From: Thermus sp. CCB_US3_UF1 | GTDB lineage: Bacteria > Deinococcota > Deinococci > Deinococcales > Thermaceae | Assembly (NCBI RefSeq): GCF_000236585.1 | Contig: NC_017278.1 | Coordinates: 186,001 to 250,000 of the forward strand | DNA: 64,000 bases | Direction of reading: 5' to 3' | Part shown: positions 42,736 to 52,605 of the stretch, piece by piece | How the letters are laid out: every line of letters begins with the position of its first letter | How positions within the stretch are numbered: the first letter of the stretch is position 1 | Made by a program: the position numbers and the translations under genes | Notes under the pieces: model-generated | The model's input: only the letters and a program-made list of their open reading frames with translations | Told to the model about the DNA's origin: nothing | Database searches by the model: none

Positions 42736-42769
42736 GGTCGTGTCAAGAGTTATGTGTAAGAGTCTGTGT
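42736..42769 (+). repeat. IS256-family terminal inverted repeat, left
   Basis: Imperfect inverted partner of 43960-43993. It contains the transposase stop codon (42745-42743). Confidence 0.85.
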
Positions 42770-43921
42770 ACGGGGGGCATACCGCTCCTGAAGCATCTTC
42801 TCCAGCACCTCCTTCACCTCCGAGAACCCCTTTAGTTTCCGTTCTGCCCACCTCCCTTCCTGCCTCTCCGACTCCAGGTAAAGAAGCTTGTACACCGCCT
42901 CTTCCTTAGGAAACTTGTGGTCCCGCACCTTCGTCCCCCGCCGCACTTCCCGGATAAACCGCTCCATCAGGTTGGTGCTCCGCAGGTACGGCCAAAGCAC
43001 CTTGGGGTACCCGTAGAACCGCAGGAAGGCCCCCGAATCCTGTACCCAAAGCCCCACCACCCCCGGGTACCGCGAACCCCAGGCGGCCTTCACCTCCTCC
43101 AAGGCCCCAAGAGCTTCTTCCCGGCTCTCCGCCCCGTACACCCGCCTCAGGTCCTCCGCCAGCAGGCCCCGGTCCCGCGCCCGCACCTGGGACAGGCTCC
43201 ACCGCACCCCGTGCACCACGCACCGCTGCCATTCCGCCTGAGGGTAGACCCTGCGGATCGCTTCAGGAAGCCCGGGCAGCCCGTCGGTGATGAAGAGCAA
43301 TACCCGCCGCAGGCCCCGCTGCCAAAGCTCCCCCAGGACCCCCTCCCATCCCAGGGCGCTCTCCGTGGGCAACAGCCAAAACCCCAGGACCCGCCTCTCC
43401 CCATTAGGGGCGATGCCCAGGGCCACATACACGCTTTCCCGTACGATCCCTTCTCCTTCCCTGAAGACCTTTAGGGAAAGCCCGTCCAGGTAGACGAAGG
43501 CCATCTCCTCGGGCAAAGGCCGGGTGCGGAAGGCTCCTGCCGCCTCCAGGACCTCGTCCGTCAGGGCGCTCAGGGTCTCGTGGGAGTAGCGGTGGCCTAA
43601 GAGCAGGCTCAGTATCTCGGCCGCCTTGCGCTGACTGACCCCGGCGGCGTAAAGGGCTACCGCCACTTCCCCCACGTCCACCAGGCGGCGGACGTAGGGC
43701 TTAAGGAAAGCCGGGTAATACCGAGATTCCCGATCCCTAGGGACCTTCAGGTCCACCTGGCCGAAGGTGGTCTCCAGCTTGCGGGGGTAGTAGCCGTTCC
43801 TGCGGCCTCCGTGCACCTGCAAGAAGGCCGTCCGGTCCAGCTCCAGAACCGTCTGCAGAACCTCGGCTACTGTCTCCCGCACCGCTTCCCTCAGCAAGAT
43901 CCGCAAGGTATCCTGGTCCAC
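42743..43921 (-). CDS. IS256-family mutator-type transposase
   Basis: 392 residues. Catalytic residues lie in VYLDGLSLKVF (Asp), LLFITDGLPGLPEAI (Asp) and STNLMERFIREVRRGTKVRDHKFP (Glu), the last being the IS256/mutator signature. N-terminal helices and the LDRTAFLQVHGGRRNGYYPRKLET segment are typical. GTG 43921 is preferred: GAGGAGGT lies six bases upstream and the longer frame from 43963 would run through the inverted repeat. Intact, so the element may be active. Confidence 0.93.
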   Translation of the reverse strand: MDQDTLRILLREAVRETVAEVLQTVLELDRTAFLQVHGGRRNGYYPRKLETTFGQVDLKVPRDRESRYYPAFLKPYVRRLVDVGEVAVALYAAGVSQRKAAEILSLLLGHRYSHETLSALTDEVLEAAGAFRTRPLPEEMAFVYLDGLSLKVFREGEGIVRESVYVALGIAPNGERRVLGFWLLPTESALGWEGVLGELWQRGLRRVLLFITDGLPGLPEAIRRVYPQAEWQRCVVHGVRWSLSQVRARDRGLLAEDLRRVYGAESREEALGALEEVKAAWGSRYPGVVGLWVQDSGAFLRFYGYPKVLWPYLRSTNLMERFIREVRRGTKVRDHKFPKEEAVYKLLYLESERQEGRWAERKLKGFSEVKEVLEKMLQERYAPRTQTLTHNS

Positions 43922-43959
43922 GGGGCACCTCCTCGTGCTAAGGTGTGCCCCCCTATTAA

Positions 43960-43993
43960 ACACGGACCCTTACACATAAATCCTTACACGACC
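43960..43993 (-). repeat. IS256-family terminal inverted repeat, right
   Basis: Reads inward GGTCGTGTAAGGATTTATG; inverted counterpart of 42736-42769. Confidence 0.85.
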
Positions 43994-44008: not shown

Positions 44009-44926
44009 ATGCGTAGGGTTTTCTTTGCTTTCCTGTTTACAGCCGTCGCCCTGGCGCAACAGGGGACGTGCCCTGGAGAAAGGGTTCCCCACGACCTTGG
44101 GGAAGTCTGCCTTTCCAAAGTGCCTGACCGGGTGGCGGCCTTGGATTGGAGGCCTCTGGAAGACCTCTTGCTTCTGGGGGTTAGGCCTGTGGCCGGGGCG
44201 GACCTGGCTGACTTCCCCAAATGGGTGAAGGTTCCCCTTCCCCAAGGGATCGCGGATCTAGGTGGGCGCACCGCCCCCAACCTTGAGCGCCTCCTTGCCT
44301 TGAGGCCTGACCTGATCCTGGGCTACACGGGCTTTCAAGGCCGTCTCTATCCGGAGCTGTCCCGCATCGCCCCCACGGCCCTCTACGATTACCTGCCTTC
44401 GGAGGGGCAGCTTGCTGCCATGCGCCGACACTTCCTGCTCCATGCCCAGCTGGTGGGCAAGGCCAAGGAGGGGGAGAGGATACTCTCGGATTTAGACCGC
44501 TTTCTGGCCCAGGCCCGGGAGCGCTTGGAGCAGAGGGGGCTCGGGGGTAGGCCCTTCCTCCTGGTGCAAGCCTGGGCCAGGGACAAGGTGTACAACATCT
44601 TCACCCGCTCCACCTTGGCCTCCGAGGTCCTGGAGGCCGTGGGTCTGCGCAACGCCTGGACGGGGAAGGCTGAGGCTTACGGTCTTTCCCGGGTAGGGCC
44701 CGAAGGGCTGGTGCGCCTGGTGCGGGAGAACCCAGGGGTGCAGGTGTTGCTCATCGCCCAGCCGGGAAACAACCCCCTGGCTGACCCTGCCATTGGGCCC
44801 CTGCTCCGCCTCCAGGGGGCCCGGGTCCATCCCATGGATCCGGCCACCTGGACCTACGGGGGTCCCCTTTCGGTTCGGGTACTGGTGGAGGAGGCGTTGC
44901 GGGTCCTTCTGGGGGGTAAACCATGA
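44009..44926 (+). CDS. Iron-siderophore/heme-type ABC binding protein (FecB/FhuD-like)
   Basis: 305 residues, signal peptide MRRVFFAFLFTAVALAQQ. FecB-type bilobal fold: PDRVAALDWRPLEDLLLLGVRPVAGADLADFPKWV, LGGRTAPNLERLLALRPDLILGYTGFQGRLYPELSRIAPTALYDYLP, and a C-terminal LPLLRLQGARVHPMDPATWTYGGPLS-like domain. WxYGGPLS endings are common in FepB/FhuD-like proteins. No permease or ATPase follows, so it probably uses HmuUV or remote partners. It was clearly the last gene of the heme operon before the IS256 insertion: without the element only nine bases separate it from the upstream stop. Confidence 0.82.
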   Translation: MRRVFFAFLFTAVALAQQGTCPGERVPHDLGEVCLSKVPDRVAALDWRPLEDLLLLGVRPVAGADLADFPKWVKVPLPQGIADLGGRTAPNLERLLALRPDLILGYTGFQGRLYPELSRIAPTALYDYLPSEGQLAAMRRHFLLHAQLVGKAKEGERILSDLDRFLAQARERLEQRGLGGRPFLLVQAWARDKVYNIFTRSTLASEVLEAVGLRNAWTGKAEAYGLSRVGPEGLVRLVRENPGVQVLLIAQPGNNPLADPAIGPLLRLQGARVHPMDPATWTYGGPLSVRVLVEEALRVLLGGKP

Positions 44927-45127
44927 GCCAAGGTGGCCTTGCATTCACCCCCATTCCCGGGGCCTTCCCTGGAACATAGGTTAGGGAAGGGGCCCTGGGG
45001 CCCTTCTCCCAGGGACCCGGGGGTAGCTTGGCCTTTGACCCCCCTTTCCCGAGGGGGGGCAAGGGGGAAGCCTTGGGTGTGGCCTGGTGGGCCTCCTGCC
45101 CTAACATCGAGATGATGCCCATCCTCC
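44927..45127 (+). other. Intergenic region before the riboswitch promoter, no gene recognised
   Basis: GC-rich, with only very short ORFs (one 18-codon ORF from the ATG overlapping the upstream stop). A GC-rich imperfect inverted repeat around 44990-45015 might terminate the upstream gene; it has no T tract. Nothing else seen. Confidence 0.4.
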
Positions 45128-45156
45128 TTGACCCCCCACACAACCCATGGTAGCCT
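45128..45156 (+). promoter_or_regulatory. Promoter of the cobalamin-riboswitch operon
   Basis: -35 TTGACC (45128-45133), 17-bp spacer, -10 TAGCCT (45151-45156). The predicted start near 45163 sits just before the first riboswitch stem. Confidence 0.65.
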
Positions 45157-45162
45157 CCCCTT

Positions 45163-45320
45163 CAGGGTGCCCAATACCTGGGGTGCCCTGGCCGCGATGC
45201 CAGGCCGACAGGCCTGGACGCCCCTTGGCGGTGGGGGAAGTCCGGTGAGAGTCCGGCGCTGTCCCGCAACGGTAACCGGTCCTACCTGGCCGGAAGCCCG
45301 AGTACCCGCTTCGCGGTCCT
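45163..45320 (+). promoter_or_regulatory. Cobalamin (B12) riboswitch
   Basis: The conserved core is present: GGGGGAAGTCCGGTGAGAGT then CCGGCGCTGTCCCGCAACGG and TAA (45233-45275), followed by the GCCGGAAGCCCGAGTACC element (45289-45306), the B12-box region. Upstream stems GCCAGGCC/GGCCTGG (45199-45216) fit the aptamer's 5' arm. It precedes metE and the nrdBA genes, B12-independent enzymes that are known riboswitch targets elsewhere. Adenosyl- or methylcobalamin binding should shut the operon down. Confidence 0.93.
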
Positions 45321-45399
45321 GCCCCGTAGCCCTCGAGGCAAGGGTGAAGGTGGTGATGCCTGTGGGACCTTAGACCCAAGTCTCCCCAAAATCCGTAGG

Positions 45400-45457
45400 G
45401 CGGAACCCTTGTGGTCCGCTAGGCTTTAGGTTCCTGGGGCGGAGGTTTTCCTTCCGC
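45400..45457 (+). promoter_or_regulatory. Leader hairpins, candidate riboswitch expression platform
   Basis: Two GC-rich hairpins: 45400-45419 (7-bp stem with one bulge, CTTGT loop) followed by GGCTTTAGG, and 45439-45457 (GCGGAGG / CCTTCCGC, one bulge, TTTT loop) ending seven bases before the AGAGGAGGT ribosome site of the first gene. Either could be the terminator or the site-masking stem; I cannot tell which by eye. Confidence 0.35.
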
Positions 45458-45476
45458 AAGGACAGAGGAGGTTTGC

Positions 45477-45854
45477 GTGCGGGAAACCCGCATGGTCCAC
45501 CTGGTGTTTCCCGGTGAGACCAACCACTACGGCACCCTTTTCGGCGGCACGGTCATGGCCTGGATGGACCAGGCGGCCTTCGTGGCCGCCACCCGCCACG
45601 CGAGGCGCAAGGTGGTTACCGTCCATTCCGACGCCGTGGACTTCCAGCGCCCGGTGCCCCTGGGCTCCATCGTGGAGCTGGTGGCCCGGGTGGTGGGGGT
45701 GGGGCGTACCTCCATGCGGGTGGCGGTGGAGCTTTGGGTGGAGCCCTTGGAGGGGGATAGGTACCTGGCGGCCAAGGGTGGGTTCGTGCTGGTGGCCTTG
45801 GATGGGGAGGGGCGGCCTGCGCCGGTCCCTCCCCTGGAAGGGGTGAAGGAATGA
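45477..45854 (+). CDS. Hotdog-fold acyl-CoA thioesterase (YciA/BFIT-like)
   Basis: 125 residues. MVHLVFPGETNHYGTLFGGTVMAWMDQAAFVAATRHARRKVVTVHSDAVDFQRPVPLGSIVELVARV is the typical hotdog pattern, with the N-H-Y-G-T-L-F-G-G-x-x-M-x-W-x-D active-site helix of acyl-CoA hydrolases. Cleaves fatty acyl-CoA in the cytoplasm. GTG 45477 has AGAGGAGGT five bases upstream. First gene after the riboswitch; its stop overlaps the metE ATG. Its reason for being under B12 control is unclear, possibly handling of acyl- or methylmalonyl-type CoA esters. Confidence 0.85.
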   Translation: MRETRMVHLVFPGETNHYGTLFGGTVMAWMDQAAFVAATRHARRKVVTVHSDAVDFQRPVPLGSIVELVARVVGVGRTSMRVAVELWVEPLEGDRYLAAKGGFVLVALDGEGRPAPVPPLEGVKE

Positions 45855-48001
45855 CGGTGAGGACTTTGGCCTACGGTTTTCCCCGGCTGGGTCCGGACCG
45901 GGAGTATAAGCGCCTTTTGGAAGGCTTCTGGTCCGGGGAGGTGTCGGAGGAGGCCTTCCGGCAGGGGCTAGAGGGGTTGGAGGCCCTGCGGCTTGCGGCC
46001 TACCGCCGCCATGTGGACCTCTACCCCGTGGGGGAGATGAGCCTCTACGATCCCCTGCTGGACCTGGCGGTGATGGTGGGGGTCTACCCCATAGACCCCC
46101 AGGACCTGGGGGCCTACTACGCCCTGGCCCGGGGCAAGGGGGCCCTGCCCCTGCGGAAGTGGTTCGGCACCAACTACCACTACCTGGCCCCCCTGCTGCC
46201 CGAGGCGCCCCGCTACAAGCCCCACTGGAACAAGCCCCTGGAAGCCTTCCGCAAGCACCCTGAGGGGCTTCCCCACCTCCTTGGGCCCTATACCCTTCTC
46301 CGCCTGGCCCAAAACCCTCCAGAGGGAGGGGAGCGGGCCCGCCACCTCGAGGCCCTGGGCGAGGTCTACGCCGCCTTCCTTGGGGAACTCAAGGGGGCAG
46401 GGGCCCCCCTGGCCCTCCTGGAGGAGCCGGCCCTGGGCCTGGATGGGGCCGAGGAGGACCTCCCGGCCTTGGAAAGGGTTTATGGCCGCCTCCTGGAGGC
46501 CCTGCCCCTGGCCCTCCTCACCCCCTACCTCCTCCCCCGGCCGGAGGTGGGGGCGGGGCTTTACCCCCTTCCCTGGGCCGCGGCAAGCCGGGACCTCGAG
46601 GCCCCCCGGGGAGGCCCCAGGGTGCCCATCCTGGGGGTGGTGGAGGGGCAGGGGGTTTGGCGCACCCCCCTCCTGGAGGTGGCCCGCCGCCTGCGGGAGG
46701 CCTTGGGGGAGGGGGAGGTCTGGCTTGCCCCCCGGGCCCCCCTTTACCACCTGCCCTGGCGGGTGGGGTCCCCGCCCCCGGGTCTGGAGGGACGGCTGGC
46801 CTTTGCCGAGGAGAGGCTTGGGGAGCTTGCCCTCCTGGCCCGTCTCCTCCGGGGGGAGGAGGGGGCCCTGGCCGAGGCCCAGGCCTGGCGCGCCCCCGGG
46901 GAGCCCCCCAGGCTACCTCCCCTTTCCCCCCCTCCCGGGCCCCGTCCCCCGGGGCCTGTGCGCAAGGAAGCGCAAAGGGACCTCCCCCTGCCCCCCTTCC
47001 CCACCACCACCATCGGCAGCTTCCCCCAGACCCAGGAGCTACGCGCCCTCCGGGCCCGCTTCCGCTCGGGAAAGCTTTCCCCCGAGGCTTACGGGGAGGC
47101 CATACGGGAGGCCATCGCCCGGACCATCCGCTTCCAGGAGGCCGTGGGCCTGGACCTCCTGGTCCACGGGGAGCCGGAGCGGAGCGACATGGTGGAGTTC
47201 TTCGCCGAGCGGCTGGAGGGTTTCCACACCCACCCCTCGGGCTGGGTCCTCTCCTACGGCAGCCGGGTCTACCGCCCTCCCATCCTGGCGGGGCCGGTGC
47301 GGCGCAAGGGGCCCCTGGCCCTGGAGGAGCTCCGCTACGCCCAAAGCCTTACCCCCAAGCCCGTGAAGGCCATCCTCACCGGCCCCATCACCCTGGCCGC
47401 CTGGAGCTACCTGCCTGAGGGGGCCAGCTTCGCCGAGGCCGTCCTCCACCTGGCCGAGGCCATCGGGGAGGAGGTGCGGGCCCTGGAGGGGGCAGGCTTC
47501 CGCTTCCTGCAAATCGACGAGCCCGCCCTCCTGGAGAAGCTTCCCCTGCGGGCCGAGGCCCAGCCCGCCTATCTGGAGCTGGTGCGGGAGGCCTTCCGGC
47601 GGGCGGTGCCCGTGGGGCCGGGGGTGCAGGTCCACCTCCACCTCTGCTACTCCGAATACGCCGCCTTGAGGCCCTTTCTGGAGGCCATGGACCCCGATGT
47701 GGTGAGCCTCGAGGCCGCCCGGCAGGAGCCCCGCTTCCTGGGGGCCCTGGAGGGTCTGGACCTGGGCCTGGGGCCCGGGGCCTTCGACGTGCACTCCCCC
47801 CGGGCCGTGTCCCCGGAGGAGATGGAGGGGAGGCTCCTCGCCTACCTGGACCACATCCCCCCCTCCCGCCTCTGGGTCAACCCCGACTGCGGCCTCAAGA
47901 CCCGTACCTGGCCCGAGGCCGAGGCCAACCTGAAGGCCATGGTGGAGGCGGCCCGGCGCCTTAGGGCCCGTTTTGGAGGCGAGGATGCTCACAGAACCTA
48001 G
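45851..48001 (+). CDS. metE: Cobalamin-independent methionine synthase MetE
   Basis: 716 residues, slightly short of the usual 750. The N-terminal barrel starts RTLAYGFPRLGPDREYKRLLEGFWSG. The catalytic C-terminal barrel has TTIGSFPQTQELRALRARFRSG, VHGEPERSDMVEFFAERLEGF, QIDEPALLEKLP, the zinc site VQVHLHLCYSEY (His, Cys) and NPDCGLKTRTWPEAEANL (second Cys). Transfers a methyl group from 5-methyltetrahydrofolate polyglutamate to homocysteine without B12. Placement behind a cobalamin riboswitch is classic: made only when B12 is short. The 3' end overlaps nrdB by 17 bases. Confidence 0.95.
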   Translation: MTVRTLAYGFPRLGPDREYKRLLEGFWSGEVSEEAFRQGLEGLEALRLAAYRRHVDLYPVGEMSLYDPLLDLAVMVGVYPIDPQDLGAYYALARGKGALPLRKWFGTNYHYLAPLLPEAPRYKPHWNKPLEAFRKHPEGLPHLLGPYTLLRLAQNPPEGGERARHLEALGEVYAAFLGELKGAGAPLALLEEPALGLDGAEEDLPALERVYGRLLEALPLALLTPYLLPRPEVGAGLYPLPWAAASRDLEAPRGGPRVPILGVVEGQGVWRTPLLEVARRLREALGEGEVWLAPRAPLYHLPWRVGSPPPGLEGRLAFAEERLGELALLARLLRGEEGALAEAQAWRAPGEPPRLPPLSPPPGPRPPGPVRKEAQRDLPLPPFPTTTIGSFPQTQELRALRARFRSGKLSPEAYGEAIREAIARTIRFQEAVGLDLLVHGEPERSDMVEFFAERLEGFHTHPSGWVLSYGSRVYRPPILAGPVRRKGPLALEELRYAQSLTPKPVKAILTGPITLAAWSYLPEGASFAEAVLHLAEAIGEEVRALEGAGFRFLQIDEPALLEKLPLRAEAQPAYLELVREAFRRAVPVGPGVQVHLHLCYSEYAALRPFLEAMDPDVVSLEAARQEPRFLGALEGLDLGLGPGAFDVHSPRAVSPEEMEGRLLAYLDHIPPSRLWVNPDCGLKTRTWPEAEANLKAMVEAARRLRARFGGEDAHRT

Positions 48002-48950
48002 GGTCCACTACCGCCCCTACGAGTACCCGGGGCTTCTCCGCTTCCGGGATGCCATCCGGCACAGCTACTGGGTGCACACCGAGTTCAGCTACGCCGCCGA
48101 CGTGCAGGACTACGCCCTGGTGGGGGAGGCCGAGCGGTCCCTGGTCCGGCGGGCCCTTCTCGCCATCTCCCAGGTGGAGCTTTCGGTGAAGCTCTTCTGG
48201 GCCCGGGTCTACGAGGTCTTCCCCAAGCCCGAGGTGGCCGAGGTGGGGATGACCTTTGCCGAAAGCGAGGTGCGCCACGCCAACGCCTACGCCCACCTCC
48301 TGGACCTCCTCTCCCTCTCGGAGGCCTTCCCCAAGGCCCTGGAGGAGCCCCCCCTGAAGGCGCGGCAGCGCCTCCTGGCCTCGGTGCTGGAGCGGGCCCG
48401 CGGGGGGAGCCTGCGGGAGTACGCCCTGGCCCTCCTCCTCTTCTCCGCCTTCACGGAGCACATCTCCCTCTTTTCCCAGTTCTACATCCTCATGGCCCTG
48501 AACCGCCGCCAGGGGCGGTTCAAGGGGATCTCCAACGCCATCGAGGCCACCAGCAAGGAGGAAAACCTGCATGGGCTCTTTGGGGTGGAGCTTCTCCGCC
48601 TGCTCAGGATGGAGCGGCCCGAGCTTTTCGTGGGCTTTGACGAGGAGGCCCTGGGCTTTGCCCAGGAACTCTTCCGGGCCGAAGAGGACCTCCTCTCCTG
48701 GCTTTTCGCCGGAGGGGAGCCCGAGGCCGTTGCCTTCGCCGAGGTGCGGGAGTTTCTCAAGGCCCGCTACAACGAGGTCCTGGCCCTCCACGGCCTGCCC
48801 AGGCCCTTTGCGGTGAAGGAGGAGCTCCTTCGGGACACGGACTGGTTTGCCCTGGAGCTTTTGGCGGACAAAGAGGTGGACTTCTTCAACAAGCGCTCCG
48901 TGGCCTACGCCCGGAGGGTGCAGAGCTACGATCCGGAAAGCCTTTTCTAG
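47985..48950 (+). CDS. nrdB: Class I ribonucleotide reductase small subunit NrdB
   Basis: 321 residues, ferritin-like. Metal and radical residues are visible: AISQVELSVKLFW (acidic ligand), FAESEVRHANAYAHLL (Glu95, His98 and radical Tyr102 in ExxHxxxY), LLLFSAFTEHISLFSQ and ATSKEENLHGLFG (EExxxH). The Tyr at the radical position argues for a tyrosyl-radical diiron or dimanganese enzyme, not the Phe-type class Ic. The C-terminus ends YDPESLF. ATG 47985 has GGAGG five bases upstream; the in-frame TTG at 47973 overlaps that site. Supplies the radical to NrdA encoded ten bases downstream. Confidence 0.93.
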   Translation: MLTEPRVHYRPYEYPGLLRFRDAIRHSYWVHTEFSYAADVQDYALVGEAERSLVRRALLAISQVELSVKLFWARVYEVFPKPEVAEVGMTFAESEVRHANAYAHLLDLLSLSEAFPKALEEPPLKARQRLLASVLERARGGSLREYALALLLFSAFTEHISLFSQFYILMALNRRQGRFKGISNAIEATSKEENLHGLFGVELLRLLRMERPELFVGFDEEALGFAQELFRAEEDLLSWLFAGGEPEAVAFAEVREFLKARYNEVLALHGLPRPFAVKEELLRDTDWFALELLADKEVDFFNKRSVAYARRVQSYDPESLF

Positions 48951-48959
48951 GAGGATGGC

Positions 48960-51728
48960 ATGCGGAAGACGAAGCGGGAGTATGAACCCTGGTACTGGGC
49001 CAACGAATGGACCCGGCTCTACATGAGCCGGGGCTACCTCCTCCCCGGGGTTTCCGTGGAGGAGCGGGTGCGGCAGATCGCCAGGCGGGCCGAGGCCCTG
49101 ACCCGGATCGAGGGGTTTGCCGAGAAGTTTGAGCGCTACATGGCCCGCGGCTGGTACTCCCTGGCCACCCCCATCTGGGCCAACTACGGCCTTGGGCGGG
49201 GCCTTCCCATCTCCTGCTATGGCACCTACGTGGAGGACGACACCGCCTCCATCCTGAGGGCCGTGGCCGAGATCGGGATGATGAGCAAGCAAGGAGGGGG
49301 GACCTCGGTCTACCTGGGCAACCTTCGTCCCCGGGGGGCCCCCATCCGGGACAACGGGGAGTCCAATGGCTCCTATGCCTTCGCCAGCCTCTTTGACCGG
49401 GTGATTGAGGTTTTCAACCAGGGCTCCACCCGCAGGGGGCAGTGCGCCGCCTACATCCCCATCGAGCACCCCGACTTCCCGGAGTGGCTCAGGATCCAGC
49501 GGGAGGGGTCGGAGATCCAGTCCCTCTTCTGGGGGGTTACCGTGGGGGACGCCTGGCTCGAGGCCATGGTGGCAGGGGACCGGGAGAAGCGGGAGCGCTG
49601 GGCCCAGGTTCTCAAAAGCCGGGCCGAGGTGGGCATCCCCTACATCTTCTTCCGGGATAATGCCAACCGGGCCCGGCCGGAGATCTTCAAGCGGCTTGGA
49701 GTGGAGATCCATGGGTCGAACCTCTGCGTCGTGGGGAGTTCCCTTGCGGTGACCTCGGAAGGCATACGCAGGGTGGAGGACCTTTACCGGGAGGGAAAAC
49801 CCCTCACGCTCTTCGATGGGGAGAAGCCTGTACCAGCCTCACCGATGTACCTCATAGAGAGGGATGCCGACGTATACACCGTCATAACGAAATCTGGCAG
49901 AAGGCACACCGTAACCGGATACCACAAGGTGAAGACCCAAAGGGGCATGGTACCTGCCTTGGAGCTCAAGCCGGGGGATAAAATTGCCATCCAGCGGAAC
50001 GAGGGTTTGTTTGGTTCTTACCACAACCCGGACCTGGCTTTTCTCCTTGGCCTGTACCATGGTGACGGCACGCAAACGGATAAGCAAATCTTTATAGACC
50101 TTTGGGAACATGACTTTGACCTGAAGGAGAAGATAGAGGCTTGCGTGGAGAGGGTGTACCTGGCGAACGGTTGGGATGCGTATGAGGTTTTTGTCCCCAG
50201 TGTGAGAACCGCCAGCAGAAGGGCCAGCATCCCCAGGTTCTACCCTACGCCTCAAGTGGGCAAAGAGAAAAAGCTTAGGCTTGGGAGCACAAAACTAAAG
50301 CAACTTGGCTTCGAAAAGTTCCTCATCCCGGACTGGATTTGGCAGGGAGACAAGGAGACCCAGGCGGCTTACCTTAAGGGACTTTTCTACGCTGATGGGA
50401 CCGTTCGTGTTGGCGAATCTGAGGGGAACCCCATCCAGCTTGCCTTAGCCTCTGTCAACAAGGAATTCCTCCGTCAGGTCCAAATCATCCTCACCAATCT
50501 GGGGATCAACTCCAGGATTTATAAGCTTCATGATGCCGGAAATACTCTTCTACCAGATGGTCGTGGCGGGCATAAGGAGTACCCAACCAAGGACTCTTGG
50601 CGTTTGGTGATAGGGGATAAGAATTCTGCCCTAAAGTTTGAGGACCTAACAGGCTTCTTGTCCCGTAAAGGCGTGCATCTGGAGCGTCGGGAGTACCGGG
50701 ACAACACAAAGAAGTGGGACGAAGTCGTGGCTGTGGAATACGCCGGGAAGGAGGACGTCTATTGTTGCACGGTCTACACAGATGAGCATGTGTGGGTTTG
50801 CGATGGAATAATTACATCAAACTGCACCGAAATTGCACTTCCCTCCACCCCAGAGGAGTCCTTTGTCTGCTGTCTCTCCTCCCTGAACCTCCTCCACTTT
50901 GACGAGTGGAAGGACACGGATGCGGTGGAGACCCTGACCATCTTCCTGGACTCGGTGCTGGACGACTTCATCGAGAAGGCCCAGGGCATCCCCTACATGG
51001 AGCGGGCCGTGCGCTTCGCCCGGCGCTACCGGGCCATCGGCATCGGGGTTTTGGGCTGGCACAGCTACCTCCAGTCCAAGGGCATTCCCCTGGAGAGCGC
51101 GGACGCGGTCTTCCTCAACGGGCTCATCTTCAAGACCATCCTGGAGCGGGCCGAGGAGGCCTCCCGCTGGCTCCGGGCCCGCCACCCGGAGGATGAGCTT
51201 GCCGAGCTCATGGAGAGGAGGAACGCAACCCTGATGGCCGTTGCCCCCACCAAGTCCAGCTCCTTCATCCTGGGCCAGGTTTCCCCCTCCATAGAGCCCT
51301 ACACCAGCAACTACTACCTCAAGGACCTGCAGAAGGCCCGCGTGCCTTTCAAGAATCCCTTCCTGGAGGAGCTCCTCCGGGCCAAGGGCAAGGACGAGGA
51401 GCGGGTTTGGCGGAGCATCTTGGAGCACAACGGCTCCGTGCAGCACCTGGACTTCCTCACGGACGAGGAAAAGGACGTCTTCAAGACCTTTGCCGAGGTT
51501 TCCCAGAAGACCCTCATCAACCTGGCCGCTGGGCGGCAGCGGTACATCGACCAGGGCCAGTCCCTCAACCTGGTGATCCACCCCGAGGCCCCGCCCAGGG
51601 ACGTGAACGAACTCTACCTCCACGCCTGGCGCTCGGGGCTGAAGGCCCTCTACTACCAGTTCAGCAGCAGCACGGCCCAGGCCTACAGTCGGGACCTCCT
51701 CCTCTCCTGCCGGGCCTGCGAGGGGTAG
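48960..51728 (+). CDS. nrdA: Class I ribonucleotide reductase large subunit NrdA, interrupted by an intein
   Basis: 922 residues as encoded; after splicing 556. Extein motifs: GRGLPISCYGTYVEDD (active-site Cys), MMSKQGGGTSVYLGNLRPRG, HGSNL|CTEIALPS (Asn, catalytic thiyl Cys, Glu), VCCLSSLNL (partner Cys), YRAIGIGVLGWHSYLQ, KALYYQFSSSTAQ (Tyr-Tyr radical path) and C-terminal SCRACEG redox pair. The intein (residues 256-621) sits immediately before the thiyl cysteine, so activity depends on splicing. The N-terminus starts directly with the catalytic domain; the ATP-cone regulatory domain is missing. Forms the deoxynucleotide-making complex with NrdB. Under the cobalamin riboswitch, presumably as alternative to a B12-dependent class II enzyme. 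Confidence 0.94.
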   Translation: MRKTKREYEPWYWANEWTRLYMSRGYLLPGVSVEERVRQIARRAEALTRIEGFAEKFERYMARGWYSLATPIWANYGLGRGLPISCYGTYVEDDTASILRAVAEIGMMSKQGGGTSVYLGNLRPRGAPIRDNGESNGSYAFASLFDRVIEVFNQGSTRRGQCAAYIPIEHPDFPEWLRIQREGSEIQSLFWGVTVGDAWLEAMVAGDREKRERWAQVLKSRAEVGIPYIFFRDNANRARPEIFKRLGVEIHGSNLCVVGSSLAVTSEGIRRVEDLYREGKPLTLFDGEKPVPASPMYLIERDADVYTVITKSGRRHTVTGYHKVKTQRGMVPALELKPGDKIAIQRNEGLFGSYHNPDLAFLLGLYHGDGTQTDKQIFIDLWEHDFDLKEKIEACVERVYLANGWDAYEVFVPSVRTASRRASIPRFYPTPQVGKEKKLRLGSTKLKQLGFEKFLIPDWIWQGDKETQAAYLKGLFYADGTVRVGESEGNPIQLALASVNKEFLRQVQIILTNLGINSRIYKLHDAGNTLLPDGRGGHKEYPTKDSWRLVIGDKNSALKFEDLTGFLSRKGVHLERREYRDNTKKWDEVVAVEYAGKEDVYCCTVYTDEHVWVCDGIITSNCTEIALPSTPEESFVCCLSSLNLLHFDEWKDTDAVETLTIFLDSVLDDFIEKAQGIPYMERAVRFARRYRAIGIGVLGWHSYLQSKGIPLESADAVFLNGLIFKTILERAEEASRWLRARHPEDELAELMERRNATLMAVAPTKSSSFILGQVSPSIEPYTSNYYLKDLQKARVPFKNPFLEELLRAKGKDEERVWRSILEHNGSVQHLDFLTDEEKDVFKTFAEVSQKTLINLAAGRQRYIDQGQSLNLVIHPEAPPRDVNELYLHAWRSGLKALYYQFSSSTAQAYSRDLLLSCRACEG
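49725..50822 (+). other. RIR1-type intein with LAGLIDADG homing endonuclease
   Basis: 366 residues. Block A begins CVVGSSLAVTSEGIRRVEDL with Cys1; block B is YTVITKSGRRHTVTGYHKV. Two LAGLIDADG motifs are FLLGLYHGDGTQ and YLKGLFYADGTVRV, both with the metal-binding Asp, so the endonuclease looks intact. The C-terminal splice junction is VYTDEHVWVCDGIITSN followed by +1 Cys. The last residue is Asn as required; the usual penultimate His is replaced by Ser, an atypical feature. The DNA is visibly AT-richer than the flanking exteins, a sign of separate origin. Confidence 0.95.
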
Positions 51729-51744
51729 GCTGGATGGTAGGGGC

Positions 51745-52605
51745 ATGCGGGTAGCCAGCCTGGTCCCCTCGGGCACCCTCCTCCTGCGGGCCCTAGGGGT
51801 GGAGCCCGTGGGGGTAAGCCACGCCTGCCCTAACCCTAGGGGGGCGGTGGTCCTCACGGAAAGCCTCATTCCCAAAGGCCTTTCCCAGGAGGAGATTGAC
51901 CGCCGGGTGCGCGAGGCCTACGCCCAAGGGGCCTCCCTCTACCGGGTGCGGGGGGAGGCCCTGGAGGCCCTGGCCCCGGACCTCCTGGTGGCCCAAGGGG
52001 TGTGCGAGGTCTGCGCCGCCACCCCCCAGGAGGTGGCAGGCGCCCTGCGTTTCCTCTCCCAAAGGCCAAGGGTGCTGGAGCTTAGGGGCACCCGCCTGGG
52101 GGACCTCTTCGCCGAACTCCAGGCCCTAGGGGAGGCCACGGGAAGGGAGGGGGAGGCCCGGGCCTTGACCCAGGCCCTTAGGGAGCGGCTCCTGGCCCTT
52201 CCCCTGCCCTCCCATAGGCCCAGCGTGGCCTTCCTGGAGTGGCTGGACCCCCCGTACCTGGGGGGGCACTGGGTGGCGGAGGTGGTGGAGGGGGCCGGGG
52301 GGCGGTACCTGGGGCCGGGCCCCGGGGAGCGGAGCCGGAGGGTGGACCCTAAGGGGCTGCCCCAGGCGGAGGTGGTCCTCCTAGCCTTCTGCGGCTACAG
52401 CCTGGCCGAGGCCCAGGAGGCCGTGGCCCGCCACCTCTCCCGCGGAGGGTGGCTTGGGGAGTACCTGAGGGGGCGCCGGGCCTACCTCCTGGACGCCGCC
52501 CCCTTCCAGGCCCTGACCCACCTGACGGTGGAGGGGGTGGAGCTCCTTTCCCGCCTCCTCCGGGGGGAGGAGGGGGTGGAGGGCCTGGCCCTTCCCCTGG
52601 CCTGA
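51745..52605 (+). CDS. Cobalamin-binding protein, BtuF-like, without signal peptide
   Basis: 286 residues of the FecB/BtuF fold: MRVASLVPSGTLLLRALGVEPVGVSHACPNPRGAVVLT, LVAQGVCEVCAATPQEVAGALRFL (the QxxCxVC segment typical of cobalamin-binding relatives), WLDPPYLGGHWVAEVVEGAGG and LLDAAPFQALTHLTVEGVELL. It starts straight into the first beta strand with no export signal, so it either stays in the cytoplasm or the start is misplaced; no upstream start with a signal is visible. No BtuCD genes nearby. Last gene of the riboswitch operon (16 bases after nrdA), so B12 scarcity should raise it. Confidence 0.78.
   Translation: MRVASLVPSGTLLLRALGVEPVGVSHACPNPRGAVVLTESLIPKGLSQEEIDRRVREAYAQGASLYRVRGEALEALAPDLLVAQGVCEVCAATPQEVAGALRFLSQRPRVLELRGTRLGDLFAELQALGEATGREGEARALTQALRERLLALPLPSHRPSVAFLEWLDPPYLGGHWVAEVVEGAGGRYLGPGPGERSRRVDPKGLPQAEVVLLAFCGYSLAEAQEAVARHLSRGGWLGEYLRGRRAYLLDAAPFQALTHLTVEGVELLSRLLRGEEGVEGLALPLA

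Follow-up and report, generated by a model that had tools for sequence, protein, structure and literature searches.

The 64,000-nucleotide stretch of DNA analysed here (the window) comes from a Thermus-type genome of 2.26 Mb and carries, on its forward strand, a compact run of genes behind a cobalamin riboswitch. The first gene (45477..45854, with a GTG start) encodes a 4HBT hotdog acyl-CoA thioesterase, the orthologue of TTHB207 (PDB 2EIS), which scores 79.9 bits against PF03061 (gathering score 20.6). It is followed by metE (45851..48001), for a B12-independent methionine synthase; by nrdB (47985..48950), for the small subunit of a class I ribonucleotide reductase (RNR); and by nrdA (48960..51728), for the large subunit, of the NrdE-prime type. 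MetE has both the PF08267 and PF01717 domains, and the zinc-ligand motifs HLC and NPDCG are seen by eye; it scores 621 bits against NF003556 (cut-off 541) and lies below the cut-off of TIGR01371 (592 against 930). NrdB matches PF00268 with 141.8 bits and has the ExxHxxxY motif in the form EVRHANAY, while NrdA scores 940 bits against TIGR02510 (cut-off 602). The thioesterase gene overlaps metE by 4 nt and metE overlaps nrdB by 17 nt, which would fit a single transcript, and the order riboswitch-thioesterase-[metE]-nrdB-nrdA recurs across Thermus, in agreement with the tight packing of these four genes noted in an earlier interpretation of the locus made from the letters alone (the sequence-only reading). 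That reading also counted as an operon member the next gene, which is BtuF-like (51745..52605; PF01497-like, at 21.3 bits below the cut-off of 27.5) and has no obvious signal peptide. Within the stretches fetched, only three further Thermus-type genomes have a similar gene close by, in none of them directly behind nrdA; on this comparison it is an adjacent gene and not a conserved member of the operon. By inspection, a minus-strand reading frame at 42743-43963, which sits between a FecCD/ABC-type uptake cluster and a FhuD-like binding-protein gene, reads like an IS256-type transposase.

Two of the genes have histories of their own. metE is an optional inner gene, with a match in 16 of 50 Thermaceae genomes, one of these a fragment. 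At two further loci (L087 in genome G024 and L097 in G035) remnants of metE, in the form of short matching pieces only, lie between the thioesterase gene and nrdB. The window MetE is 79% identical to the protein of G043 and 77% identical to that of G011, which belongs to another genus, against about 63-66% for the other Thermus copies, and because of this pattern an exchange of metE between genera is suggested. The window nrdA is interrupted by an intein with a LAGLIDADG endonuclease domain (49725..50822, forward strand; PF14528, 69.7 bits; PF14890, 25.8 bits, below cut-off), which went unmentioned in the sequence-only reading. It is placed directly before the cysteine of the NrdA NLCxE motif, with junctions N-L/CVVGSS and ITSN/CTE, so that an essential-looking cysteine is split off from the residues before it. 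In the other Thermus operons compared, the matched copies of NrdA showed no such insertion.

The recognisable aptamer that had been described upstream of these genes corresponds, on a covariance-model search, to RF00174 at 45193..45328 on the forward strand (33.8 bits, gathering score 31.5; E 7.2e-5), the sole Rfam match in the 64,000 nucleotides at gathering thresholds. The genome has two cobalamin riboswitches; the second scores 62 bits, precedes a gene that reads as a periplasmic-binding-protein gene, and shows a terminator hairpin by eye. The window leader is conserved before the equivalent operon across Thermus; the Meiothermus-type copies are weaker, and many fall below the RF00174 cut-off. 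A promoter had also been proposed, and although a generic sigma-70 consensus scan returned none in the window leader, the proposal is credible because a TTNACN-17/18-TANNNT site is kept at the equivalent position in 22 of 22 Thermus-type leaders, the window included; the blank scan was therefore dropped as an argument against it. In the window the site reads TTGACC (45128-45133), 17 nt, TAGCCT (45151-45156), and so spans 45128..45156 on the forward strand. Comparison of leaders further revealed a near-invariant 3' extension of the aptamer (45329..45373, forward strand), possibly the expression platform. Within it, CCCTCGAGGCAAGGG is common to all Thermus-type nrd leaders compared and is also present in T. 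thermophilus HB8; both it and the 45-nt element as a whole are missing from the other cobalamin riboswitch of this Thermus genome. The end of the element could be read as a mini-ORF (45353-45373, forward strand; GTG ATG CCT GTG GGA CCT TAG, that is, VMPVGP and a stop). In 23 of 26 leaders this frame ends in GP-stop, with a stop codon that varies between TAG, TGA and TAA; the exceptions are one V-M-R-M-D-P-stop and two frameshifted copies. No intrinsic terminator (a G+C hairpin followed by a T run) was found at 44900-45500, a span that takes in the interval between aptamer and thioesterase gene, and the minimum-energy fold of the whole leader was rejected as a model of the switch, its z of -0.43 showing that shuffled sequences fold equally well.

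The presence of a cobalamin riboswitch before metE and nrdBA makes sense because MetE and NrdAB are the B12-free counterparts of enzymes encoded in the same genome. MetH, matches to an NrdJ-type class II RNR above cut-off, and two PF01642 mutases (methylmalonyl-CoA mutase) are all found there, and the B12-independence operon that had been claimed, with MetE and a class I RNR as substitutes for MetH and NrdJ, is thus supported as a coherent B12 swap at the level of gene content. Both halves of it have precedents. In Streptomyces the nrdABS genes are under a coenzyme-B12 riboswitch, and the class I RNR can replace the B12-dependent one (Borovok et al. 2006, as cited in PMC8620254). The window operon differs in that it adds MetE and a hotdog thioesterase, and in that its RNR is of the small NrdE-prime type. 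A cobalamin riboswitch likewise precedes metE elsewhere, for example in Mycobacterium (also cited in PMC8620254), and in the window, too, a riboswitch lies ahead of the B12-independent methionine synthase, with the difference that metE in the Thermaceae is an optional gene inside an RNR operon. That metE and class I RNR genes can be under riboswitch control is, then, already known. PMC11287211 lists as corrinoid-independent alternatives MetE, corrinoid-independent RNRs, the methylcitrate pathway (the known alternative to the mutase) and an alternative epoxyqueuosine reductase. The window operon shares the logic of this set; no thioesterase is named in the passages concerned, and the thioesterase clade would add to the set a component on the propionyl-/methylmalonyl-CoA side. 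Nor does the word 'thioesterase' occur in the body of the article by Sun et al. 2013, with its RegPrecise regulogs, and a search of open-access full text returned no report linking this thioesterase group to B12. As far as the open-access full text goes, the thioesterase is the undescribed component.

The thioesterase was compared with proteins of known structure and family. It matches PDB 2EIS with E 9.5e-64 and 2GVH with E 9.7e-56. These are the solved structures of two close homologues, respectively TTHB207, to which the T. thermophilus HB8 orthologue corresponds, and Agrobacterium AGR_L_2016p, a tandem double hotdog match. TTHB207 is labelled a hypothetical protein in the PDB; in the open-access literature no paper on it, and no B12 role for it, was found. 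Like the acyl-CoA thioester hydrolase YciA, the window protein belongs to the 4HBT hotdog family and keeps the Asn and Asp residues, here Asn16 and Asp31, which would be catalytic as in other hotdog enzymes. Unlike YciA it stays under the equivalog cut-off (NF007970, 73.3 against 162 bits) and stands apart in a quick tree, across forks of weak to moderate support, and the neighbours of E. coli yciA are unrelated to B12.

Among 50 Thermaceae genomes, a thioesterase orthologue (about 66% identity or more) lies in the same operon in 42 of the 43 that have a class I RNR and in none of the seven without one (Fisher p = 8e-8, with shared ancestry ignored and from genome lists compiled by hand). Judged by this distribution, the thioesterase is a constant member of the operon and not a hitch-hiker. 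Its place within the operon is another matter: the position as first gene given in the sequence-only reading holds for some lineages, Thermus among them, but in Meiothermus-type genomes the thioesterase gene comes last. There the order is usually riboswitch-nrdI-nrdE-[metE]-nrdF-thioesterase, with metE behind nrdF in one case, so that the RNR family differs (NrdIEF, against NrdB-NrdE' in Thermus) and the gene order is reversed, with the thioesterase drawn from the identical orthologue group. The pairing is repeated in three genomes that belong to other families in the phylum, in one behind RF00174 and in one behind AdoCbl-II, these two riboswitches scoring above cut-off. Three Deinococcus plasmids carry operons of the thioesterase-nrdI-nrdE-nrdF type, and in two of the three an AdoCbl-II match below cut-off lies upstream. 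The leaders before the thioesterase gene at Deinococcus loci L180, L182 and L183 have in common a conserved GGCACAGTCGCGCTACGGT motif.

To follow the thioesterase into other phyla, an alignment was built from plasmid matches in Shinella, Novosphingobium and Paracoccus and used to collect the best 80 related loci among the matches listed, from species genomes. As the query came from B12-linked loci, these are nearest relatives and not a random sample. Flanks of up to 9 kb, shorter at contig ends, were scored by BLAST to reference proteins, by a riboswitch sequence pattern that gave no match in shuffled sequence, and by Rfam. These best 80 listed loci belong to Proteobacteria, Myxococcota and Acidobacteriota, and 77 of them show at least one of four features: methylcitrate-cycle genes are present at 57, metE-type genes at 37, RNR genes at 33 (each counted from a BLAST match to either subunit, large or small; Pfam confirmed several as class I) and a cobalamin-riboswitch motif at 44. 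Of this set, 16 loci were tested with Rfam, and every one gave a cobalamin riboswitch. The controls were few and hand-picked from the match list: none of five YciA-type plasmid loci had B12-related neighbours in the annotation or a cobalamin riboswitch, and neither of two Thermaceae paralogue loci, for which only riboswitches were searched, had a cobalamin riboswitch. Outside the phylum of Thermus the arrangements vary, with riboswitch-DUF1852-MetE-thioesterase-prp in Novosphingobium, riboswitch-thioesterase-nrdA-nrdB-metE in Pyrinomonas, riboswitch-hotdog-nrdA-nrdD-activase-nrdB in Azospira, and metE-hotdog and nrdHIEF, each with one riboswitch ahead of it, in Shinella. In Myxococcus a riboswitch lies upstream of the thioesterase gene, with no B12-free gene detected nearby, and at most methylcitrate-linked alphaproteobacterial loci no riboswitch lies directly ahead of the thioesterase gene itself. 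The new B12-linked need, tied to acyl-CoA build-up, that had been guessed from the thioesterase thus gains independent support, in that the clade keeps company in other phyla with B12 riboswitches and with class I RNR, MetE or the methylcitrate cycle. The accompanying guess of a tie to a B12-dependent mutase is likewise supported, since a PF01642 acyl-CoA mutase is encoded in 25 of 25 further thioesterase-bearing genomes, against 8 of 14 control genomes. PrpB above cut-off is missing from 11 of the 25 (Myxococcota, Acidobacteriota and one uncultured proteobacterium).

The clade is not uniform. Asp31 is kept in the window protein and in its Thermaceae, Deinococcus and RNR-linked homologues; it is replaced by Gly, Ala or Ser in 59 of 60 methylcitrate-linked homologues (L188-L270, the paralogue row L146_5600 being left out), and because these lack the catalytic-type Asp they may act differently from the window protein. 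In the double hotdogs checked, the C-terminal halves have no Asp at position 31. A quick tree, in which the wrong-frame paralogue row L146_5600 is to be disregarded, grouped the Thermaceae operon proteins with those of Deinococcus (support 98); a wider group that takes in the RNR-linked proteins of Myxococcota, Acidobacteriota and Lysobacteraceae was less firm (89, open), and the methylcitrate-linked proteins made up another part. YciA-type and paralogue rows fell mostly outside, with weak to moderate support for the separating forks, and one YciA-type row (L273), long-branched, was placed inside the open fork. For these reasons the argument for a B12-linked clade does not rest on the tree.

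The simplest account is that the thioesterase probably provides a B12-free outlet for propionyl- or methylmalonyl-CoA. It is favoured because the mutase accompanies the thioesterase in all 25 further genomes, because PrpB is missing from 11 of them, and because G011, the only Thermaceae genome with a class I RNR and without the thioesterase, carries a prpC-prpD-prpB cluster. Against it stand the replacement of Asp31 in the methylcitrate-linked homologues, the lack of a riboswitch directly ahead of the thioesterase gene at most methylcitrate-linked alphaproteobacterial loci, and the genome G015, which has both a cluster of this type and the thioesterase. The Lysobacteraceae count against it too, since there the thioesterase is joined in the genome by a prpB gene (above cut-off in 5 of 6) and by a mutase that matches piecewise. 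The presence of methylmalonyl-CoA mutase fails as a divider between Thermaceae with and without the thioesterase, being found in 50 of 50. The PrpD-type matches of Thermus, weak and partial (E between about 1e-5 and 1e-8, with a few that narrowly pass the cut-off), were rejected as signs of a methylcitrate cycle. Three Thermaceae genomes (G027, G032 and G039) keep the mutase with neither an operon-type thioesterase nor a full-length PrpD match, so such a valve is dispensable there. As a member of the B12 regulon the thioesterase could, alternatively, work for class I RNR or for some other B12-free function in cofactor or thiol chemistry. This would agree with its presence and absence tracking RNR in the Thermaceae, and with RNR being its usual neighbour in Deinococcota, Myxococcota, Acidobacteriota and Lysobacteraceae. 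Several different RNR families are nevertheless paired with it; many Proteobacteria have it at the head of methylcitrate-cycle genes or beside MetE in an operon without RNR; and no RNR was detected near the Myxococcus riboswitch and thioesterase, all of which makes an RNR-related service unlikely.

The operon is plasmid-borne in several hosts, and YciA homologues of broad specificity exist, as might be expected if a general YciA-like housekeeping enzyme had hitch-hiked on mobile plasmid operons. We regard this as quite improbable, given the score of 73 against the YciA equivalog cut-off of 162 bits, the want of B12-related neighbours at YciA-type loci and of cobalamin riboswitches at paralogue loci, and the B12 link, in several phyla, at 77 of the best 80 clade loci listed. 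The need might, alternatively, be real and the substrate a different acyl-CoA of B12-dependent mutases, such as isobutyryl-, ethylmalonyl- or methylsuccinyl-CoA. The B12-dependent ethylmalonyl-CoA pathway operates in many alphaproteobacteria, and in Lysobacteraceae the mutase matches come as separate pieces, two within one long frame, as for a fused mutase, which we take to be of the IcmF type. Against such substrates, the commonest neighbours outside Deinococcota are methylcitrate-cycle genes, which are specific to propionyl-CoA (57 of the best 80 loci listed), and we consider this alternative likewise quite improbable.

Returning to the propionyl-/methylmalonyl-CoA outlet, sequence comparison shows which genes are present, that a riboswitch precedes them and that the thioesterase belongs to B12-independence loci of several phyla, and it is tempting to combine these findings in one scheme. 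When B12 is plentiful, the cobalamin riboswitch, presumed to be an OFF switch with B12 as its ligand, would hold the operon off. When B12 falls, MetE would replace MetH, NrdAB would replace the B12-dependent NrdJ, and the hotdog thioesterase would act as a safety valve, freeing CoA from thioesters that the B12-dependent acyl-CoA mutase, starved of its cofactor, could no longer clear, be it propionyl-CoA, methylmalonyl-CoA or a branched acyl-CoA related to them. Our confidence in this switch as a whole, with MetE, NrdAB and the acyl-CoA thioesterase all as B12-free replacements, is somewhat better than even. The broader proposal, that the thioesterase is the third arm of a cross-phylum B12-independence module and relieves a CoA trap with or instead of the methylcitrate cycle, we put at an even chance.

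B12-free substitutes are known for methionine, for deoxynucleotides and, in the form of the methylcitrate cycle, for propionate. The recurrence of the thioesterase beside B12-replacement genes in other phyla suggests a third chore that is switched on when B12 runs out. If this is true, a function would be assigned to the family that includes 2EIS, the T. thermophilus structure labelled a hypothetical protein; the survival of B12 limitation by bacteria with a methylmalonyl-CoA mutase but no methylcitrate cycle would be explained; and there would be a bacterial parallel to the trapping of CoA in methylmalonic and propionic acidaemia.
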